From Acidobacteriota bacterium (GTDB lineage Bacteria > Acidobacteriota > UBA6911), in contig JAFGIY010000196.1 of the NCBI GenBank assembly GCA_016929335.1, forward strand, positions 1 to 64,000: DNA of 64,000 nucleotides, given 5' to 3'. The notes below the pieces were generated by a model that had not been told where the DNA came from, searched no databases, and was given only the letters and a program-made list of their open reading frames with translations. Positions 7,304 to 50,030 of the stretch are shown here, in pieces. The stretch's first letter is position 1; every line of letters begins with the position of its first letter. The position numbers were made by a program, and so were the translations under genes.

Positions 7304-7353
7304 GCCGCGGATTGCACGGATTAAAATAATATTAGATCCGTGCAATCCGCGGC
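7304..7353. repeat. 18-bp perfect inverted repeat, CCGCGGATT family
   Basis: The arms at 7304-7321 and 7336-7353 are perfect reverse complements (GCCGCGGATTGCACGGAT) separated by an AT-rich 14-base loop. It lies between cdaA and folP, so a transcript through the operon would carry a very stable hairpin. Related inverted repeats are at 28363-28420, 44039-44088 and, more distantly, 61209-61281. It lacks a U-tract and is better read as a dispersed repeat than as a terminator. Confidence 0.8.
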
Positions 7354-43121: not shown

Positions 43122-43376
43122 TCGACCTGAACAGGCTCCTGAGGATTCAAGTCCGGGATCAAACCGGATCCCGTTTTCCGGTTTGGTTTTAACTTGCAGC
43201 AAATACAGACGCAATATTTTTAAAAATTCATTTCAGCCTGTGTCCATCCCGACGCAATGTGTTTGAAGGGACACGCCGGCAATCCTTTCCCAAACAGCTA
43301 AGTCTTTATAAATCAGCATAATATGCCTTGGCACGGGCATTGCTGTATCACTTCTGACGCAAGAAGGAGGCGGCAA

Positions 43377-44000
43377 ATGAAGCCCATGAGAAGAGAATCC
43401 AGGACAGCGGTTCTGACAGCAATTGTAATTTTTACGGCAATCTCTGTAATAGCCGAAGAAAAGCGGACGCGGATGGTGAATGCCACACAAAATGCAGCAT
43501 CCAAACCGGTCCGCAAGATTGTCGTCAGCATTGAGGATCGTAAACTGGCATTGCTCGAGGGGGATCGGGTGATAAAGATCTGGGCTACGGCCGTGGGCGC
43601 GGAGTCGACTCCGAGTCCCAGTGGAACTTATACGATCATCAACCGGCTGCGCCGGCCGGCTTACTATCATTCCGGAAAAGTCATTCATCCCGGTCCTTCA
43701 AATCCCCTGGGAACACGATGGCTCGGACTCAGCCTGAAAGGATTCGGAATTCACGGAACGAATGTTCCCGGCTCGATCGGCCGCAAGGCTTCTCATGGCT
43801 GCATTCGGATGCGGAACCGCGATATTGAGGAATTATTCGAACTCGTGGAGGTCGGTTGCGTGGTGGAGTTTCACAGTGAACGCAATGAATATCTGGCGCA
43901 GATATTTGATAACGAAACCCGGCAGGCTCCCTCATCAGAGCCTGTGATTACGGCTTCGAGCCACGAATTGGCACGAATTCTCATTACTGCGCTGGTGTAG
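43377..44000 (+). CDS. L,D-transpeptidase (YkuD family), secreted
   Basis: This is a 207-residue protein from the ATG at 43377 (GGAGG 6 bases upstream), with a signal peptide (about 8-24). The YkuD catalytic motif is complete: GIHGTNVPGSIGRKASHGCI with nucleophile Cys142, followed by RMRNRDIEELF. The enzyme forms 3-3 cross-links in peptidoglycan or attaches proteins to it. Its last 15 residues (SSHELARILITALV) are encoded by a dispersed GCCACGAATTG-type repeat and have no counterpart in the family. Confidence 0.93.
   Translation: MKPMRRESRTAVLTAIVIFTAISVIAEEKRTRMVNATQNAASKPVRKIVVSIEDRKLALLEGDRVIKIWATAVGAESTPSPSGTYTIINRLRRPAYYHSGKVIHPGPSNPLGTRWLGLSLKGFGIHGTNVPGSIGRKASHGCIRMRNRDIEELFELVEVGCVVEFHSERNEYLAQIFDNETRQAPSSEPVITASSHELARILITALV
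43960..43979 (+). repeat. GCCACGAATTG-type repeat inside the ldt 3' end, copy 5
   Basis: GCCACGAATTGGCACGAATT differs from the consensus by one base. It is within the L,D-transpeptidase reading frame and encodes the SHELARI part of its tail. Confidence 0.7.
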
Positions 44001-44038: not shown

Positions 44039-44088
44039 GCCACGGATTACACGGACATAATGAATATTTAATCCGTGAAATCCGTGGC
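44039..44088. repeat. CCGCGGATT-family inverted repeat
   Basis: The 17-base arms at 44039-44055 (GCCACGGATTACACGGA) and 44072-44088 have one mismatch. The structure parallels the element at 7304-7353. It lies in the 318-bp gap after the L,D-transpeptidase gene. Confidence 0.75.
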
Positions 44089-44318: not shown

Positions 44319-45503
44319 GTGAACAATCTCGCACAGATTTTCAAAACCATTTTTCTTATGAGCTCGGTATGCCTCGCTCTGGCCTTCCCGGGGAATATTT
44401 CCGGCGCAGATTCTTTTGCCGAAGCAGCTCGCGACCTGGCCGCCAAAATCCGGGCAGGCATGGGACCGCTGAAGAATGCAGTTTTCTCATTCCATTCTCT
44501 TGCTTCTATCGGCGCGGCGGACGTGGATGTCGCGCGCCGGGCTCTTGAGAAGGAATTGCACACTCAAGGCATCGGGTTTGTTCCGGACTCGCAGGCAGCG
44601 GCAGTGCTGAACGTCACTCTGTCTGAAAATTTCCGGCAGTACCTCTGGATTGCCGAGATTAAGCGAAGCACAAATACCGATTTTGTGATGACGGCCCAGG
44701 AGCGGCTGCAGGATTCTCTCCTGAAGGATATTGCGCCTTACATGACTGTCCAAACCAGGATTCTCTTTGAACACGCCGACCCGGTTCTTGATCTGAAGGT
44801 TCGCAATGACGGGCTGATGGTTCTTCATCCCGATCGTGTTGCGCTTTATCGCCGCAGCAGAGATCAATGGGAACTCGAGCGCTCCACTCCGCTAAAAAGC
44901 CTGAAGCCCCGGCCACGAGACTTGCGTGGAAGGTTTTCCGACGACGGAGATGCCGTACAAATCCATCTTCCCGGCCTGTTCTGCAGAGGGGCAGCCGATT
45001 CGGGCTTTGCCTTTGAATGCATGCAGGAAGAAAAGCCCTGGCCTTTTCCATCCGGAGATATCCGCCTTGCCGCTGCCGGGAATTCTTTTTTTCGCGAAAA
45101 CCTGCCTCCTTTTTTTTCAATTGCCGGTGTGGCGGAGGATGAAGCGGAGCTGTGGATTATTGCCGGAGTGGATGGACGAGCCTATTTATATGACAGCACA
45201 AACGCCCAAATTGATGCAATGGACGACGGCTGGGGGAGTGAAATTGCCGCTATTGAAAGCGAATGCGGAACAAAGCGTCAGATCCTGGTTTCGCTCCGGA
45301 CCGATCCGCTGGCGCGAGGCGCCATTCAGGCTTTTGAGATCGTGAACCGGAGCGTCGTCGTCAAGAGCTCTCCTGTTGAGTTTCCCGGACCCATCACGGC
45401 GCTATGGCCTGTAGCGGAACAGGATGCCGCGATTGCCATATCGCGCGACCTGAAAACGGGGCACTATGCAGCGTTCTATTTGTCGATTTCTTGCAGCCGC
45501 TAG
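44319..45503 (+). CDS. Secreted protein of unknown function, first gene of a sensor operon
   Basis: The frame encodes 394 residues with a signal peptide (about 1-29). The start is uncertain: GTG at 44319 or ATG at 44358, neither with a good ribosome site. I recognise no named family. The N-terminal third (DLAAKIRAGMGPLKNAVFSF, VARRALEKEL) resembles lipoprotein-like alpha/beta domains. The rest has beta-propeller-like strands (ELWIIAGVDGRAYLYDS). It overlaps the binding-protein gene by 38 bp, so the two are coupled. Confidence 0.7.
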   Translation: MNNLAQIFKTIFLMSSVCLALAFPGNISGADSFAEAARDLAAKIRAGMGPLKNAVFSFHSLASIGAADVDVARRALEKELHTQGIGFVPDSQAAAVLNVTLSENFRQYLWIAEIKRSTNTDFVMTAQERLQDSLLKDIAPYMTVQTRILFEHADPVLDLKVRNDGLMVLHPDRVALYRRSRDQWELERSTPLKSLKPRPRDLRGRFSDDGDAVQIHLPGLFCRGAADSGFAFECMQEEKPWPFPSGDIRLAAAGNSFFRENLPPFFSIAGVAEDEAELWIIAGVDGRAYLYDSTNAQIDAMDDGWGSEIAAIESECGTKRQILVSLRTDPLARGAIQAFEIVNRSVVVKSSPVEFPGPITALWPVAEQDAAIAISRDLKTGHYAAFYLSISCSR

Positions 45504-46860
45504 TTTGTTGATCGGCTTGCGGGCCGGCGATGCCGCCGGACGTCCGCGTTACGGCGGCACTTTGCGCGTCCAGATGCAGGAATCCGTGCGCAGCCTCGCT
45601 CCCGACGAAAATCCTGCAAGCCGCCTCGAGGCGGCGGCAAAAGACAAGCTGATTGCCCTTGTGTTCGAATCCCTGATACGGCTGGATGAAAACGGCCGCC
45701 CGCAGGCGGTTTTGGCTCTTTCCTGGCAGCAGGATTCCGGCGGCAGGCGATGGCGCTTCCGTCTTCGGCCGGATGTGAAGTTTCACGACGGATCGATGTT
45801 GACGCCCGGGATAGCCGCAGCCGCGCTGCGTTCTTCTTCGCCGCAATGGAAAATCTCCGCTCTGCGGGATGGGCTGCTGATTGAATCCGGCATTCCAATG
45901 CCCGACCTGCTGTTTGATCTGGCACAACCATCGCATTCCGTTTTCATCCACGCATCCGATCAGACTCTAAGCGGTACGGGTCCATTCCAGCTCACCAAAT
46001 GGGAACCGGGGCGTCAGGCGATTTTCACCGCGAATGAGCAGCACTGGGCCGGCCGCCCGTTTCTGGATTCCGTATCCATCGAGATGGGACGTCCGTTGGC
46101 CGAGCAGCTGATGGACCTGGAATTGGGAAAAGCCGATTTTGTGCAAATCTGGCCGAATGAGATGCGCCGAATTCCTGAAGGATCGAGGACTTGGCGATCG
46201 CAGCCGGATACGCTGATTGCGCTCGCTTTTGAGCGCGGCCGCTCCGCAACTGAGAATGCACGACTGCGCGAAGCGCTGGCGCTTTCCATCGACCGGGAAG
46301 CCATTCTCAATTGGCTGATGCAAAAGCAGGGCGAAACAGCGGCTTCACTGCTGCCCCAGTGGCTGAGCGGCTACGCTTTTCTGTTCTCAGTCCGGAAGGA
46401 TGTGAAGAAGGCGCAGCAGCTGATTTCCGGACCCGGAGAATCGCGCTCGGCTCTTCATCTGTCCTATGATGCGATCGATCCGCTTGCGCGCAACATCGCG
46501 GAAAGGATCTCTCTGAATGCGCGTGAAGCCGGAATCGGTCTCAAGGTATCCGATCACCCGCCAAATGTGGACGTTCGCCTTGTGCGATTGCCTGTACGTT
46601 CCCTGTCGCCACAAGCGGCTCTCGCCGATCTGATTTCGGCGCTTCGGCTCGGTGGCATTGATTTGCCGGATCCTGCATCGGCCGAAAGCCTGTATTCGGC
46701 TGAGAAGGCGGCTCTGGCCGAGTATTATGTAATTCCGCTGTTCCATGTTCCCGAAATCTACGGTTCAAGCTCGAAACTGAAGACGTGGACAACTCCGGGC
46801 ATCAGCCAATTCGGGGAGTGGCGTTTCGACGATATGTGGCTGGAGGCGGAGATACGGTGA
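45466..46860 (+). CDS. ABC-type oligopeptide/nickel solute-binding protein (family 5)
   Basis: This is a 464-residue exported protein with a signal peptide (about 1-22) and SBP_bac_5 features: RYGGTLRVQMQESVRSLAPDE near 28, WRFRLRPDVKFHDGSML near 93, GTGPFQLTKWEPG near 170, and LREALALSIDREAIL near 270. The usual transport partners are absent. Its stop overlaps the GTG start of a membrane histidine kinase (GTGA). It is therefore more likely a ligand-sensing subunit of the kinase than a transporter component, although permeases could be encoded elsewhere. Confidence 0.85.
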   Translation: MQRSICRFLAAASLLIGLRAGDAAGRPRYGGTLRVQMQESVRSLAPDENPASRLEAAAKDKLIALVFESLIRLDENGRPQAVLALSWQQDSGGRRWRFRLRPDVKFHDGSMLTPGIAAAALRSSSPQWKISALRDGLLIESGIPMPDLLFDLAQPSHSVFIHASDQTLSGTGPFQLTKWEPGRQAIFTANEQHWAGRPFLDSVSIEMGRPLAEQLMDLELGKADFVQIWPNEMRRIPEGSRTWRSQPDTLIALAFERGRSATENARLREALALSIDREAILNWLMQKQGETAASLLPQWLSGYAFLFSVRKDVKKAQQLISGPGESRSALHLSYDAIDPLARNIAERISLNAREAGIGLKVSDHPPNVDVRLVRLPVRSLSPQAALADLISALRLGGIDLPDPASAESLYSAEKAALAEYYVIPLFHVPEIYGSSSKLKTWTTPGISQFGEWRFDDMWLEAEIR

Positions 46861-48626
46861 GCTTTCGCACACGCCTTTTAATATTGATTTCACTGGTAGT
46901 ATGCCTGACCGCGGCGCTGGTGACGGGGATCGCCGTTGCCAGAATGCGGAGCGCCTACGAAACCCTCGATAATGAGCGGACGGCCGCTTTAGTCGCCCAG
47001 TTCCGCAAGGAATTCCAGCGGCGGGGAGTGGAAGTAGTTCAGAAGGTCGCAGCAATTGCCAAAGCGGATTCCGTGATGCAGCTGGCCATTGCTTTGAGCC
47101 ATCCGGAGTCCGAGCTGTCTCTCTATGTGGAAGAAGCCGCAGGCCTGGCCGCGATGAATAATCTCGATTTCCTGGAATTGATGGACGGCAGCGGCGTGAT
47201 CCTGTCTTCCGCTCACTGGCCTGCCCGCTTCGGCTATAGGGCGGAGTGGATTCTCCAGTCCCCGGATTGGAACCTGGAAGGCTATTTCCTCAAGAGCGAA
47301 GAACTGCCGGATGAGACGGTCCTGGCGCTCGTGGCAGTTCGAATGATCAGTGCGGGAGACAAAAAACTGTATGTCGCGGGAGGATGCAGGCTGGGCAAAG
47401 AATTCCTTTCCTCTCTTGTTCTACAGAAGGGAGTGCGGGTTCTTCTCTATCCCAATCTGACGCCGGAGTTTTCTGCACAAGAGCTCATTATGGATTCAAA
47501 GGTCGTGAACGAGCCGGAAAAGCTGAGACCGCTGATTGAGCAGGTTATGGGTTCATCCGCAGAGGCCTCTCGAACAGTTGCCTGGAATGACGGTCACGAG
47601 ACCGTTCATGCCATTCCCCTCCTCGGTCGCGATAGCACACTTCTGGGTATGTTCCTCGTAGGCAGCTCGCGCCAGGAGCTTTTAAGACTCATCAATAAGA
47701 TCACGCTTACAGGAATCATCGCCGCGGCGGCTGGAATTCTGCTCGGCATCGCTTTGAGTTACTGGGTTTCATTGCGCATCACGCATCCTGTGAAAGAGCT
47801 TGTAGTGGGAGCCCGGCGCGTTGCGCAGGGCAGCTGGGATGCTCGTGTGAATGTATCCTCCCGGGATGAAATCGGCGAACTGGCGGGAGCCTTCAATACC
47901 ATGACACAGCAGCTGATCGATCAGCGCGACCGGCTTGTGCAGGCGGAGCGGGTAGCGGCGTGGCGTGAACTGGCGCGGCGTCTCGCCCACGAATTGAAGA
48001 ATCCGCTTTTCCCGCTGCAGATCACAATCGAGAATCTGCAGCGTGCCAAAGAACGCGCGCCCGAGCAGTTCGAAGAGGTCTTTCGCGAAAGCACCGGAAC
48101 CTTTCTGGCGCAGTTGTCCAACCTGAAAAGCATCGTCGGCCGGTTCAGCGATTTCGCCAAAATGCCTCAACCTCAGATTGAAACGGTCGATCTGAACGAG
48201 TTGATACGCGGAACGGTTCAGCTGTTTGACGCTCAGTTCAACGCGCCCGACCGCCCTGCCATCGAAACCGACTTGAATCTGGATGCCGGCCTTTCCTCCA
48301 TTCAAGCCGATCCTGAGCAGATACGGCGTGCGCTGCAGAATCTTTTGCTGAATGCCGTCGATGCCATGCCTCAGGGCGGCACAATTACACTGCGCACACA
48401 TAAGGAGAAAGACGCAATTCTGCTGGAAATCTCCGATACCGGCCAGGGCCTGACAAAAGAGGAATGCAGCAGATTGTTTACTCCTTACTATACAACGAAA
48501 CAACACGGCACGGGCCTCGGCCTCGCCATCGTGCAGTCGGTGATCAGCGATCATGGCGCCAAAATTTCCGTTGAGAGCGAGCCGGGGCAGGGTACGACGT
48601 TCAGAATAAAATTTTCGAGCCGCTGA
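46857..48626 (+). CDS. NtrY-like membrane histidine kinase
   Basis: This is a 589-residue protein from GTG at 46857, overlapping the upstream stop by 4 bp. It has two membrane helices (about 7-29 and 281-303) bracketing a periplasmic sensor domain of roughly 250 residues. HAMP follows (about 304-357), then the phosphoacceptor His near 379 in RRLAHELKNPLFPLQ, the N box NLLLNAVDAM, G1 ISDTGQGL and G2 GTGLGLAI. The large periplasmic domain and the binding protein next door suggest extracytoplasmic ligand sensing. Its partner is the sigma-54 activator that starts 3 bp later. Confidence 0.93.
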   Translation: MSFRTRLLILISLVVCLTAALVTGIAVARMRSAYETLDNERTAALVAQFRKEFQRRGVEVVQKVAAIAKADSVMQLAIALSHPESELSLYVEEAAGLAAMNNLDFLELMDGSGVILSSAHWPARFGYRAEWILQSPDWNLEGYFLKSEELPDETVLALVAVRMISAGDKKLYVAGGCRLGKEFLSSLVLQKGVRVLLYPNLTPEFSAQELIMDSKVVNEPEKLRPLIEQVMGSSAEASRTVAWNDGHETVHAIPLLGRDSTLLGMFLVGSSRQELLRLINKITLTGIIAAAAGILLGIALSYWVSLRITHPVKELVVGARRVAQGSWDARVNVSSRDEIGELAGAFNTMTQQLIDQRDRLVQAERVAAWRELARRLAHELKNPLFPLQITIENLQRAKERAPEQFEEVFRESTGTFLAQLSNLKSIVGRFSDFAKMPQPQIETVDLNELIRGTVQLFDAQFNAPDRPAIETDLNLDAGLSSIQADPEQIRRALQNLLLNAVDAMPQGGTITLRTHKEKDAILLEISDTGQGLTKEECSRLFTPYYTTKQHGTGLGLAIVQSVISDHGAKISVESEPGQGTTFRIKFSSR

Positions 48627-48629
48627 GAA

Positions 48630-50030
48630 ATGGATGGGACTTCAATGAGCCATTTGCTGATTGTGGATGACGACAAGGGAACGCTGGCTTCCCTCTCCAG
48701 GGCATTCCGTCTGGCAGGATATGAGGCGACCGTTTGCGACAATGCAGGCAAGGCGCTTGAGCTTGCGAAGGCACAGCGATTCGACATGATTCTGTCCGAC
48801 GTGGTCATGCCCGGCAAAGATGGACTGTCGCTGCTGGCTGATTTGAAGAGCGCGGGCGTTCCGGTTCCCGTTGTCATGATATCCGGACAGGCCAACGTGG
48901 AAATGGCGGTTCGAGCTACGCGCCTGGGAGCGATGGATTTTCTTGAAAAGCCGATCTCGACGGAAAAGCTGCTGCTCACCGTCGAAAATGCTCTCAAGAT
49001 AACACGGCTTGAGGAAGAAAACCGGCAGCTGCGCCAGCGCGTCGGCAAACATGAGATCGTCTGGAAGAGCGATGCCATGCGGCGCGTAATGGCACAGATC
49101 GAGCGGGTCGGTCCGAGCACGTCGCGGGTTTTCATTTATGGAGAGACAGGAACCGGCAAGGAACTGGTCGCGCGTTCTCTGCATGAACACAGCCTTCGAA
49201 AGGCGGAGCCGTTTGTAACCATAAACTGCGCTGCCGTTCCTCCGGACCTGATTGAATCCGAGCTCTTCGGACATGAAAAGGGCGCCTTCACCGGCGCCAG
49301 CGCCCGCTATTCCGGGAAATTTGAGCAGGCTCATCGCGGAACACTCTTTCTCGATGAGATAGGAGACATGCCTTTGAGCATGCAGGCGAAATTGCTGCGC
49401 GTTCTCGAAGAGGGAGAAGTCGAACGCATCGGCTCGGCCCATCCGATTGCCGTGGATGTGAGGGTCTTTGTGGCTACTCATCGCGATGTGGAAGACCTGG
49501 TTCGCAAAGACCGGTTCCGCCAGGACCTCTTTCATCGCATCTATGTTTTCCCGCTGGTTCTGCCTCCGCTGCGGGAACGAATGGAAGATATACCCGTACT
49601 GGTCGAGCATTTTTCAAGCCAGATTGCAGGACAAAATTCCTGGAAGATAAAACCGGTCACGCCTGAAGCGATCGAAGAACTCAAGCGCTACTCCTGGCCG
49701 GGTAATGTCAGGGAACTGCGTAATGTCGTCGAGCGTCTTTTATTGCTTGCCGATGATGCCGTAGATCAACAGACCGTCAAGCTGAGCCTGCCGCTTTCCG
49801 ACAGAGCGCCTGCCGCAGCAACGGGCAGCGGAGGAATCCTTGCGGAGAGAGTGGAATCCTTTGAACGGGAAACCATATTAATGGAGCTGAAGCGGCGAAA
49901 CTTCCACATGAGCGAGACAGCCAGGGCGCTGGGACTGGAGCGCAGCCATCTCTACAAAAAGTGCCAGCACCTCGGAATAGACCTGCGCGCCATCCGTCAA
50001 TCGAACCCGTCCCCGCCTCCCGAAGAATGA
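48630..50030 (+). CDS. NtrC-family sigma-54-dependent response regulator
   Basis: This is a 466-residue protein. The receiver domain has the phosphoacceptor Asp near residue 57 (ILSDVVMPGKDG). The AAA+ domain has Walker A GETGTGKE near 170 and the sigma-54 contact loop GAFTGA near 217, and the C-terminal Fis-type helix-turn-helix is ETARALGLERSHLYKK. ATG 48645 is an alternative start (MSHLLIVDDDKG), with GGGA 5 bases upstream. It activates sigma-54 promoters when phosphorylated by the adjacent kinase. Target promoters could not be found by eye. Confidence 0.95.
   Translation: MDGTSMSHLLIVDDDKGTLASLSRAFRLAGYEATVCDNAGKALELAKAQRFDMILSDVVMPGKDGLSLLADLKSAGVPVPVVMISGQANVEMAVRATRLGAMDFLEKPISTEKLLLTVENALKITRLEEENRQLRQRVGKHEIVWKSDAMRRVMAQIERVGPSTSRVFIYGETGTGKELVARSLHEHSLRKAEPFVTINCAAVPPDLIESELFGHEKGAFTGASARYSGKFEQAHRGTLFLDEIGDMPLSMQAKLLRVLEEGEVERIGSAHPIAVDVRVFVATHRDVEDLVRKDRFRQDLFHRIYVFPLVLPPLRERMEDIPVLVEHFSSQIAGQNSWKIKPVTPEAIEELKRYSWPGNVRELRNVVERLLLLADDAVDQQTVKLSLPLSDRAPAAATGSGGILAERVESFERETILMELKRRNFHMSETARALGLERSHLYKKCQHLGIDLRAIRQSNPSPPPEE

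Follow-up and report, generated by a model that had tools for sequence, protein, structure and literature searches.

A conserved binding protein, kinase and NtrC-type regulator cassette of Acidobacteriota with a putative sigma-54 control region

Acidobacteria abound in soil, and the targets are known for only a few of their signalling systems. Periplasmic binding proteins control kinases via the sensor domain in the LuxP-LuxQ and TorT-TorS pairs. ChiS is the partner of the Vibrio chitin-oligosaccharide binding protein, which is akin to family 5 solute-binding proteins (SBPs); AioX belongs to another SBP family. The accessory protein of ZraPSR, ZraP, is a zinc-binding chaperone. CpxR is not a sigma-54 activator, and the L,D-transpeptidase LdtD is encoded outside the Cpx operon. 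AioXSR, which senses arsenite, consists of the binding protein AioX, the kinase AioS and the sigma-54 activator AioR (PMC6011840). Both zraSR and zraP have sigma-54 promoters (PMC4987338), Cpx is activated when the integrity of the cell wall is challenged (PMC4791840), and ChiS is reported to be a hybrid kinase which binds DNA itself (title cited in PMC10667598).

Layout of the locus

The locus described here resides in a window of 64,000 nucleotides (the whole stretch of DNA analysed) from an Acidobacteriota bacterium, and includes the following features.

43239..43256, + strand: putative distal activator dyad TGTGTCCATCCCGACGCA, 11/12 to YGTGTY-N6-RACACR; tandem dyads are found at the same place in relatives
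43258..43275, + strand: putative proximal activator dyad TGTGTTTGAAGGGACACG, 12/12 to YGTGTY-N6-RACACR, 53 bp 5' of the -24 element
43329..43344, + strand: predicted sigma-54 -24/-12 promoter TGGCACGGGCATTGCT, without mismatch to the consensus applied
43377..44000, + strand: L,D-transpeptidase YkuD, 207 aa, head gene of the cassette; signal peptide by eye, SHGCIRM motif
44040..44087, no strand assigned: inverted repeat CCACGGATT..CACGGA in the interval from YkuD to SEC; copies like it occur at other places of the window
44319..45503, + strand: SEC, secreted protein (secretion by eye), two domains, N-terminal alpha/beta followed by a beta-propeller
45466..45503, + strand: SEC/SBP coding overlap of 38 bp
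45466..46860, + strand: SBP, 464-aa binding protein of family 5 with a signal peptide (by eye), lacking a permease partner within the cassette
46857..48626, + strand: sensor histidine kinase of HAMP-HisKA-HATPase_c architecture, with H-box His378; overlaps SBP by GTGA
46947..47672, + strand: periplasmic double-Cache-like sensor domain, about kinase residues 31-272
48645..50030, + strand: response regulator of the NtrC type, with receiver Asp52, a GAFTGA loop at 213 and an HTH of Fis type

All four reading frames of the first-pass annotation (SEC, SBP, kinase and regulator) were found at the positions assigned there. The SEC/SBP and SBP/kinase overlaps it had described are confirmed, and the four genes are tightly coupled; the 3-bp gap between kinase and regulator hinges on which start is taken. 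Relatives share the ATG at 48645, not 48630, and the gap is then 18 bp. The cassette is larger than the four genes first described. Overlooked in that annotation were the gene for YkuD, at 43377-44000, and a control region at 43239-43344, both of which form one unit with them. The YkuD start in the list of open reading frames, 43323, is too early, because the frame would then cover the promoter; the start at 43377 was fixed by hand for the upstream sigma-54 and dyad counts. The protein matches the YkuD profile (PF03734) with 86 bits, the cut-off being 23.4, and carries the catalytic SHGC motif (SHGCIRM at residue 139). GAFTGA, the receiver Asp and the catalytic motifs are all present in the cassette proteins. 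The inverted repeat at 44040-44087 is probably an inserted repeat, extraneous to the signalling system.

Conservation of the cassette and of its control region

Related loci were retrieved by the kinase sensor alone, and 80 out of 103 relatives were covered. One of the organisms with the cassette is the cultured Paracidobacterium acidisoli 4G-K13 (L170). The motif I[IVL]SSA[QH]WPA served as retrieval pattern, and its conservation in the retrieved loci is uninformative. Loci with too short an upstream sequence were set aside, hence the differing denominators of assessable loci; L042, L043 and L045, which resemble copies of L092, L093 and L137, were excluded from the order, overlap, sigma-54 and dyad counts. 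The commonest order in the 80 loci is YkuD, Band-7/SPFH, SEC, SBP, kinase, NtrC-type regulator; YkuD is present in the window cassette, and Band-7 was not found there. The SBP gene lies 5' of the kinase in 69/77 assessable loci, thus the separation of the two in most genomes, feared at the outset, did not occur. SEC was found in 64/71, the regulator in 77/79, Band-7 in 45/63 and YkuD, upstream, in 42/60 assessable loci; missing from 18 of the 60, YkuD is not a universal output. Of 71 loci measured, 57 have a 4-bp SBP/kinase overlap, and of 66, 55 share the precise 38-bp overlap of SEC and SBP; in a few of these 71 and 66 measurements the profile match starts or ends within the SBP gene, which yields negative overlaps. 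The only neighbours common to more than 19 loci are the cassette genes. The layout is conserved far beyond chance and kept over the phylum.

The site at 43329-43344 is the only one scoring at least 9 in a sigma-54 scan of the window, and relatives have it conserved ahead of YkuD. Of 46 YkuD loci, 22 carry a sigma-54-like site scoring at least 7 before the gene, and no match of this score was found in the other 24; the three backgrounds used for comparison give 4.3, 7.5 and 10.6% (versus other genes, p is about 5e-11). Clear enrichment is seen before YkuD only, and the idea that SEC, Band-7 or the regulator has a sigma-54 promoter immediately ahead of it was rejected, sites scoring at least 8 preceding the regulator at 7.7% versus 3.3% in shuffles, with no dyad there. 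The tandem dyads (43239-43275) lie 53 and 72 bp 5' of the promoter. Dyads stand ahead of the cassette in 55/65 loci, at a density of 1.66 per kb versus 0.021 elsewhere, and a recognizable one is absent in the remaining 10. Matches of at least 11/12 occur within 300 bp 5' of YkuD in 41/46 loci versus 0.3 expected from shuffles, and before Band-7 in 1/49, before SEC in 0/65 and before the regulator in 0/82 cases. The YkuD count is not independent, because the dyad was discovered in these 46 regions. The loci headed by another gene, 17/24 of which carry a dyad within 600 bp of that gene, are a better test.

A dyad enhancer combined with a -24/-12 promoter is a trait of the NtrC family, present here at the level of DNA elements, and rpoN is present in the genome. 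The dyads look like the regulator's own putative control site, placed ahead of YkuD. The earlier suggestion that the regulator acts through sigma-54 is likely, given the perfect -24/-12 site and the tandem dyads at the cassette head. What is new is the plausible missing half of the circuit, a sigma-54 site and tandem dyads, as read from the sequence, ahead of YkuD.

A search of the whole window genome for further targets gave no distinct excess over the reversed control. In its 6.5 Mb, 12/12 dyads number 2, one being 43258-43275, and 3 in the reversed control; dyads with at most 2 mismatches are 125 versus 116; the combination of dyad and sigma-54 pattern occurs once, at the cassette, versus 3 times. 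Over nine genomes the combination matched 16 times versus 10 in the control. The 16 include 6 cassette heads, 2 further promoters in G001 and 8 others resembling chance; the G105, G267 and G115 cassettes are not among them. In G001 the same tandem dyads and sigma-54 site are also found 5' of two further secreted proteins, candidate targets at C591 and C57. The window-genome homologue of one of these targets lacks the combination, which is absent also in the stretches examined of the G011, G012 and G031 homologues, that of G011 barely reaching upstream. Since genome-wide signals do not exceed the control in the window genome, the case for the dyad and sigma-54 site is built on position and conservation.

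The proposed circuit and its alternatives

We regard as probable that the locus is a self-contained, autoregulated sigma-54 envelope signalling cassette, whose output includes an L,D-transpeptidase. SEC and the transporter-less SBP would be exported, and act as accessory sensors with the double-Cache kinase. The kinase would phosphorylate the NtrC-type regulator encoded by the adjacent gene, as their families and adjacency suggest. The regulator may in turn bind the tandem YGTGTY-N6-RACACR dyads observed in the DNA, and drive sigma-54 transcription of the cassette, L,D-transpeptidase first, with plausible readthrough from the promoter into SEC, SBP, kinase and regulator. Judging from the output gene, the outcome would be the remodelling of peptidoglycan cross-links on some envelope or cell-wall signal.

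SEC has no Pfam or NCBIfam match in its window version, and no match better than E 0.8 against PDB sequences; Pfam matches of its relatives are scattered, FtsK_alpha being found in 4/65. The structure model (pLDDT 90.8) matches propellers. TolB is made of an N-terminal alpha/beta domain and a beta-propeller, and the domain order of SEC fits it, though the TolB chain ranks 37 in the Foldseek list, with a low TM-score of 0.24. The kinase has HAMP, HisKA and HATPase_c profile domains. Its sensor domain, modelled with a pLDDT of 90.3, has strands in two modules, and Foldseek matches to McpH, DctB and vpHK1S-Z8 at TM 0.4-0.5; Pfam Cache matches are weak and concern few members. The modelled fold is double-Cache-like, and could bind a ligand directly.

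A serious, though rather unlikely, alternative is that the kinase senses its ligand directly by the double-Cache, and that SBP and SEC, periplasmic binding or chaperone-like proteins, are regulated outputs and not sensors. The sensor model does resemble the ligand-bound Cache structures McpH, DctB and Tlp3, and the SEC and SBP genes sit behind the same control region. Furthermore, kinase, regulator and operator are retained in the absence of SEC and SBP in one lineage, to which essentially all of the eight loci lacking an adjacent SBP belong; the operator is kept in 6/7 assessable loci of this kind. Their sensor domain is equally conserved, with no relaxation, the sensor/kinase divergence being 1.51 versus 1.67, 1.50 and 1.44 in SBP-bearing clades. 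Residues changing with SBP loss gave no signal: fixed differences number 5 in the sensor and 2 in the kinase part, as compared with 0+0 and 16+5 in control pairs of SBP-bearing clades. Against direct sensing speak the 4-bp SBP/kinase overlap in 57/71 loci, and the finding that further families in the phylum also have a divergent kinase immediately preceded, on its own strand, by an SBP-like gene (7/16 weak kinase matches; SBP 18-97 bits). Characterized SBP-kinase pairs are likewise adjacent or close in 10/11 cases (PMC11113362), although the three SBPs studied in that paper itself gave no sign of activating the neighbouring kinases. The initial suggestion that SBP and SEC present a ligand to the kinase is no more than plausible.

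The SBP matches SBP_bac_5 (PF00496) with 130 bits versus a gathering cut-off of 32.4, and its closest solved relatives are NikA-type. The W..DYPDP..N segment, which we take to be the ligand-site segment of family 5 SBPs, with a role in peptide binding, is missing in 7/7 aligned SBPs of the cassette group (six from cassettes, one from G059), and is carried in varying form by the other 7 in the alignment. Because the segment is missing, ligand binding by the SBP is uncertain. Since the protein stems from a transporter family, it could conceivably feed a transporter encoded elsewhere, with the kinase reporting the transport status, but this is very unlikely. The genome does contain 15 BPD_transp_1 matches, two of which are permeases on contig C206, alongside the only other SBP_bac_5 gene. 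Yet, the latter is an adjoining SBP of their own, and has the segment that the cassette SBP lacks. A model built from 8 permeases, which recovers the 4 permeases serving as controls (in L050 and L046), matched nothing in the 64 kb of the window and nothing within the cassette in 80 loci; its two matches in these loci (L145, L162) lie beyond the cassette, each on the opposite strand. The SBP is thus without a permease partner, as initially noted, and the same-operon permeases that would have argued otherwise did not appear. A role of the SBP in serving a transporter was rejected on the own SBP of the C206 permeases and on the permease-free cassettes.

The regulator has Response_reg, Sigma54_activat and HTH_8 domains, the NtrC-family architecture with GAFTGA. 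A classical NtrY/NtrX system for nitrogen regulation with accidental neighbours is hardly credible, and such identity was rejected: the regulator has a Fis-type HTH and scores alike on the ntrC, AtoC and NtrX models, but is below the NCBIfam equivalog cut-offs (NtrX 410 vs 600 bits; ntrC 424 vs 558.6), and neighbours and operator are kept over the phylum, the widely shared neighbours being cassette genes.

More tentatively, and with considerable doubt, the autoregulated cassette may be extended to an envelope-response class of Acidobacteriota, in which an ex-transport peptide-type SBP and an overlapping-frame propeller would form a periplasmic gauge of the peptidoglycan state (sensing, for example, cell-wall fragments), and set the L,D-transpeptidase and their own level via a dedicated sigma-54 operator; in some species other secreted envelope proteins, such as the G001 candidates, might be included.

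Comparison with known systems

To our knowledge, neither a propeller protein nor an L,D-transpeptidase nor Band-7 accompanies AioXSR; ZraPSR has no SBP, propeller or L,D-transpeptidase, and the ChiS system no sigma-54. In LuxP-LuxQ and TorT-TorS both SBP families and output differ, and no sigma-54 promoter is known on their cassettes. The present locus bears on the recruitment of binding proteins from transport to signalling, as its SBP lacks ligand-site segment and permease, and is nonetheless coupled to a kinase. Dozens of genomes show the kinase, its regulator, the putative operator and promoter, and an output gene together in a single cassette, which opens the target and the DNA site of this uncharacterized regulator to direct test.

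The Vibrio chitin-oligosaccharide binding protein (cluster C) combines uptake with negative control of chitin signalling (PMC10667598), unlike the cassette SBP, which is without a permease partner. Cpx is similarly a two-component envelope response, which induces the L,D-transpeptidase LdtD (PMC4791840). ZraPSR joins, like the cassette, a kinase, a sigma-54 regulator and a periplasmic accessory protein, and responds to envelope stress (PMC4987338); the equivalog scores of Zra are not reached here (ZraR model 362 vs 760, ZraS 152 vs 479). In AioXSR, the genes for the periplasmic binding protein, the kinase and the regulator adjoin and are co-transcribed (PMC6011840, PMC5908839), and in the cassette the three genes are adjacent without a permease, as in three-component systems of the AioXSR kind. 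AioR acts upstream of the RpoN promoter TGGCACAACGATTGCA (PMC6011840, PMC5908839), as is proposed for the cassette regulator. However, the AioXSR target is the arsenite oxidase operon, whereas that of the cassette would be its own head; moreover, RpoD and RpoE2 promoters serve aioXSR itself, while the present cassette is headed by the putative operator. The initial remark that no standard system has this layout thus holds for the exact arrangement, as far as the literature was searched, but not for its central triad of SBP, kinase and sigma-54 regulator, which is known from AioXSR (PMC6011840).

Organization and conservation of the cassette

The first-pass annotation had singled out four coupled genes, encoding a secreted protein (SEC), a family 5 solute-binding protein (SBP), a kinase and an NtrC-type regulator. 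The observation is right, and is to be widened to a larger cassette, headed by the L,D-transpeptidase gene YkuD. From sequence comparisons, we conclude that the ensemble would be an autoregulated sigma-54 envelope cassette, having the L,D-transpeptidase as output and SBP and SEC as an accessory pair. The predicted DNA circuit is the best-supported part, and very probably correct; that SBP and SEC work as accessory sensors has about even chances.

Features of the cassette in the window
43329-43344, + strand: sigma-54 -24/-12 site TGGCACGGGCATTGCT, upstream of YkuD, perfect against the consensus used
43377 (likely start ATG, preceded by AAGGAGG), + strand: YkuD
44319-45503, + strand: SEC, no Pfam or NCBIfam match
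45466-46860, + strand: SBP (SBP_bac_5)
46857-48626, + strand: kinase (HAMP, HisKA, HATPase_c)
48645-50030, + strand: regulator (receiver, sigma-54 interaction domain, Fis-type HTH)

The four ORFs were confirmed, as were the 38-bp SEC/SBP and the 4-bp SBP/kinase overlaps. The kinase/regulator gap, originally set at 3 bp, is 18 bp instead, since relatives share the regulator start at 48645. The YkuD start in the ORF list, 43323, overruns the -24/-12 site. Catalytic and signalling motifs were all found in YkuD, kinase and regulator.

Scanning genome contigs with the kinase sensor retrieved 103 relatives. Eighty of these loci, all labelled acidobacterial, were analysed by neighbour-gene profiles made from the first relatives. 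Conservation of the four-gene order in Acidobacteriota was borne out: of the assessable loci, 69 of 77 have SBP ahead of the kinase, 64 of 71 have SEC, and 77 of 79 have the regulator downstream of the kinase. YkuD and a Band-7/SPFH gene (Band-7) were detected in 42/60 and 45/63 assessable loci, respectively, and the full YkuD, Band-7, SEC, SBP set is the commonest arrangement (28 of the 56 loci whose upstream sequence reaches 5.5 kb or more). Wide recurrence is limited to cassette genes, the next neighbour cluster including 19 loci.

At the genome level, out of 396 genomes searched in the phylum, the SEC profile matched 9 and the kinase-sensor profile 25, nine strongly (at least 366 bits) and 16 weakly (57 bits at most). 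Eight genomes are common to the SEC and strong kinase-sensor sets; G115 has the kinase, and no SEC match. SBP matches, mostly weak, were found in 38 of 60 related genomes. Besides the window's own, strong matches came from four same-class genomes, at 38-63% identity, and from G059, which belongs to another class (35%).

In 55 of the 66 loci measured, SEC and SBP overlap by exactly 38 bp, and in 57 of 71 SBP and kinase share 4 bp, despite SEC proteins of relatives being just 24-50% identical to that of the window. The 38-bp stretch (45466-45503) codes for both the SEC C-terminus and the start of the SBP signal peptide, and its exact length is kept across strongly diverged relatives.

The window has YkuD and lacks Band-7 in the cassette. 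The lone Band-7 homologue of its genome resides elsewhere and is 26% identical; no match was found in G011 and G031. In the nearest relative, G001, a Band-7 remnant whose match contains a stop codon lies between YkuD and SEC (L042, 9460-9777), at the place where the window has no Band-7.

The claim that the binding protein has no permease partner held for the cassette. Models from eight permeases, which recovered the 4 control permeases, gave no match in the 64-kb window. In the 80 loci they gave two, at L145 and L162, each outside the cassette and on the strand opposite to it. The one other place with SBP_bac_5 in the 6.5-Mb genome containing the window, on contig C206, has two adjoining permease matches.

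The putative control region

The genome encodes a sigma-54 factor, and the site at 43329-43344 is the sole one scoring at least 9 in the window. Between -70 and -10 of YkuD, the best site scores at least 7 in 22 of 46 loci, versus 4.3% of shifted, 7.5% of Markov and 10.6% of other-gene controls; enrichment over other genes has a p of about 5e-11. A recurrent dyad, scored as YGTGTY-N6-RACACR, lies upstream of the sigma-54 site. Of the 46 regions ahead of YkuD, 41 contain it within 300 bp at 11/12 or better (0.3 expected), versus 1/49 ahead of Band-7, 0/65 ahead of SEC and 0/82 ahead of the regulator. The dyad is often doubled, the two copies standing in tandem at a spacing of 18-20 bp. Distances to the -24 element group around 53 and 72 bp, and a second group falls at 44 and 62-63 bp. 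Considering whichever gene comes first, it occurs within 600 bp in 55 of 65 assessable loci, and in 17 of the 24 headed by a gene other than YkuD, which had not been used in motif discovery. Density is 1.66 per kb at the cassette head versus 0.021 elsewhere.

Throughout the window's genome, 12-of-12 dyads are not above control (2 versus 3 in the reversed control), and dyad plus sigma-54 site occurs once, at the cassette head, versus 3. The case for this putative control region is one of position and conservation, not of rarity.

Two more sigma-54 promoters with tandem dyads were noticed in G001, at L181 (G001:C57) and L189/L203 (G001:C591). The downstream genes encode a large secreted protein matching Big_5, which by eye we take to be alpha-2-macroglobulin-like, and a secreted 214-aa protein with no Pfam match; both are candidate regulon members outside the cassette.

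Between YkuD and SEC (44040-44087) resides an inverted repeat, CCACGGATT..CACGGA. Similar copies are found at 7305-7352, 28404 and other positions (7 window matches versus 0.13 expected).

SBP and SEC as a proposed accessory pair

No SBP precedes the kinase in 8 of 77 assessable loci. The kinase tree places all eight in a single supported group, whose nine rows include one, L136, that has SBP; presence/absence requires 2 changes versus 7.8 with shuffled labels. SEC is also missing in the 5 of 5 SBP-less loci where it could be judged, the dyad is retained in 6 of 7 assessable ones, and sensor divergence relative to the kinase core is no higher than in SBP-bearing clades. Persistence of kinase, regulator, dyad and sensor argues for a core made of kinase, regulator and putative operator, to which SEC and SBP would be accessory.

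In G059 (L046, 8755-11251) a SEC-SBP pair overlaps as in the cassette, and is followed by a gene resembling cytochrome P450 by eye; the 20 kb read contain no kinase, regulator or dyad.

In the SEC model (pLDDT 90.8), a beta-propeller follows an alpha/beta domain at the N-terminus; Foldseek returned many propellers with low TM-scores, TolB ranking 37th. The kinase sensor model (pLDDT 90.3) is like double-Cache domains (McpH, DctB, vpHK1S-Z8). By sequence, SBP is nearest to NikA-type structures. A stretch of roughly 30 residues surrounding W..DYPDP..N is absent in 7 of 7 aligned SBPs of this group (six from cassettes, one from G059), and present, in varying form, in 7 others of the same alignment. 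In binders of di- and oligopeptides, the acidic residue pairing with the peptide amine sits in this stretch, and canonical peptide binding by the cassette SBP is therefore doubtful.

Weakly related kinases of other families of the phylum have an SBP_bac_5-like gene just upstream, on the same strand, in 7 of 16 cases (18-97 bits), and two tandem SBPs precede a kinase in three further loci. SBP-kinase pairing thus seems recurrent in Acidobacteriota. SBP_bac_5-like genes ahead of divergent kinases, in some cases as tandem SBP pairs, were seen at L076, L077, L084, L086, L088, L089 and L090, and at L047, L051 and L052.

Comparison with known systems

No paper describing the cassette was found in a literature search that covered few subscription journals. 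According to PMC11113362, genes of characterised SBP-kinase pairs are adjacent or close in 10 of 11 cases, and the three SBPs studied there gave no evidence of activating the neighbouring kinase. GlrR sites are tabulated in PMC4987338 as TGTC-N10-GACA, with a half-site similar to that of the cassette dyad and a different spacer. The same article describes ZraPSR, a sigma-54 system of the envelope whose accessory protein is periplasmic and whose own genes have sigma-54 promoters. Cpx induces the L,D-transpeptidase LdtD, as reported in PMC4791840. The closest mechanism to that proposed for the cassette is provided by AioXSR (PMC6011840, PMC5908839).
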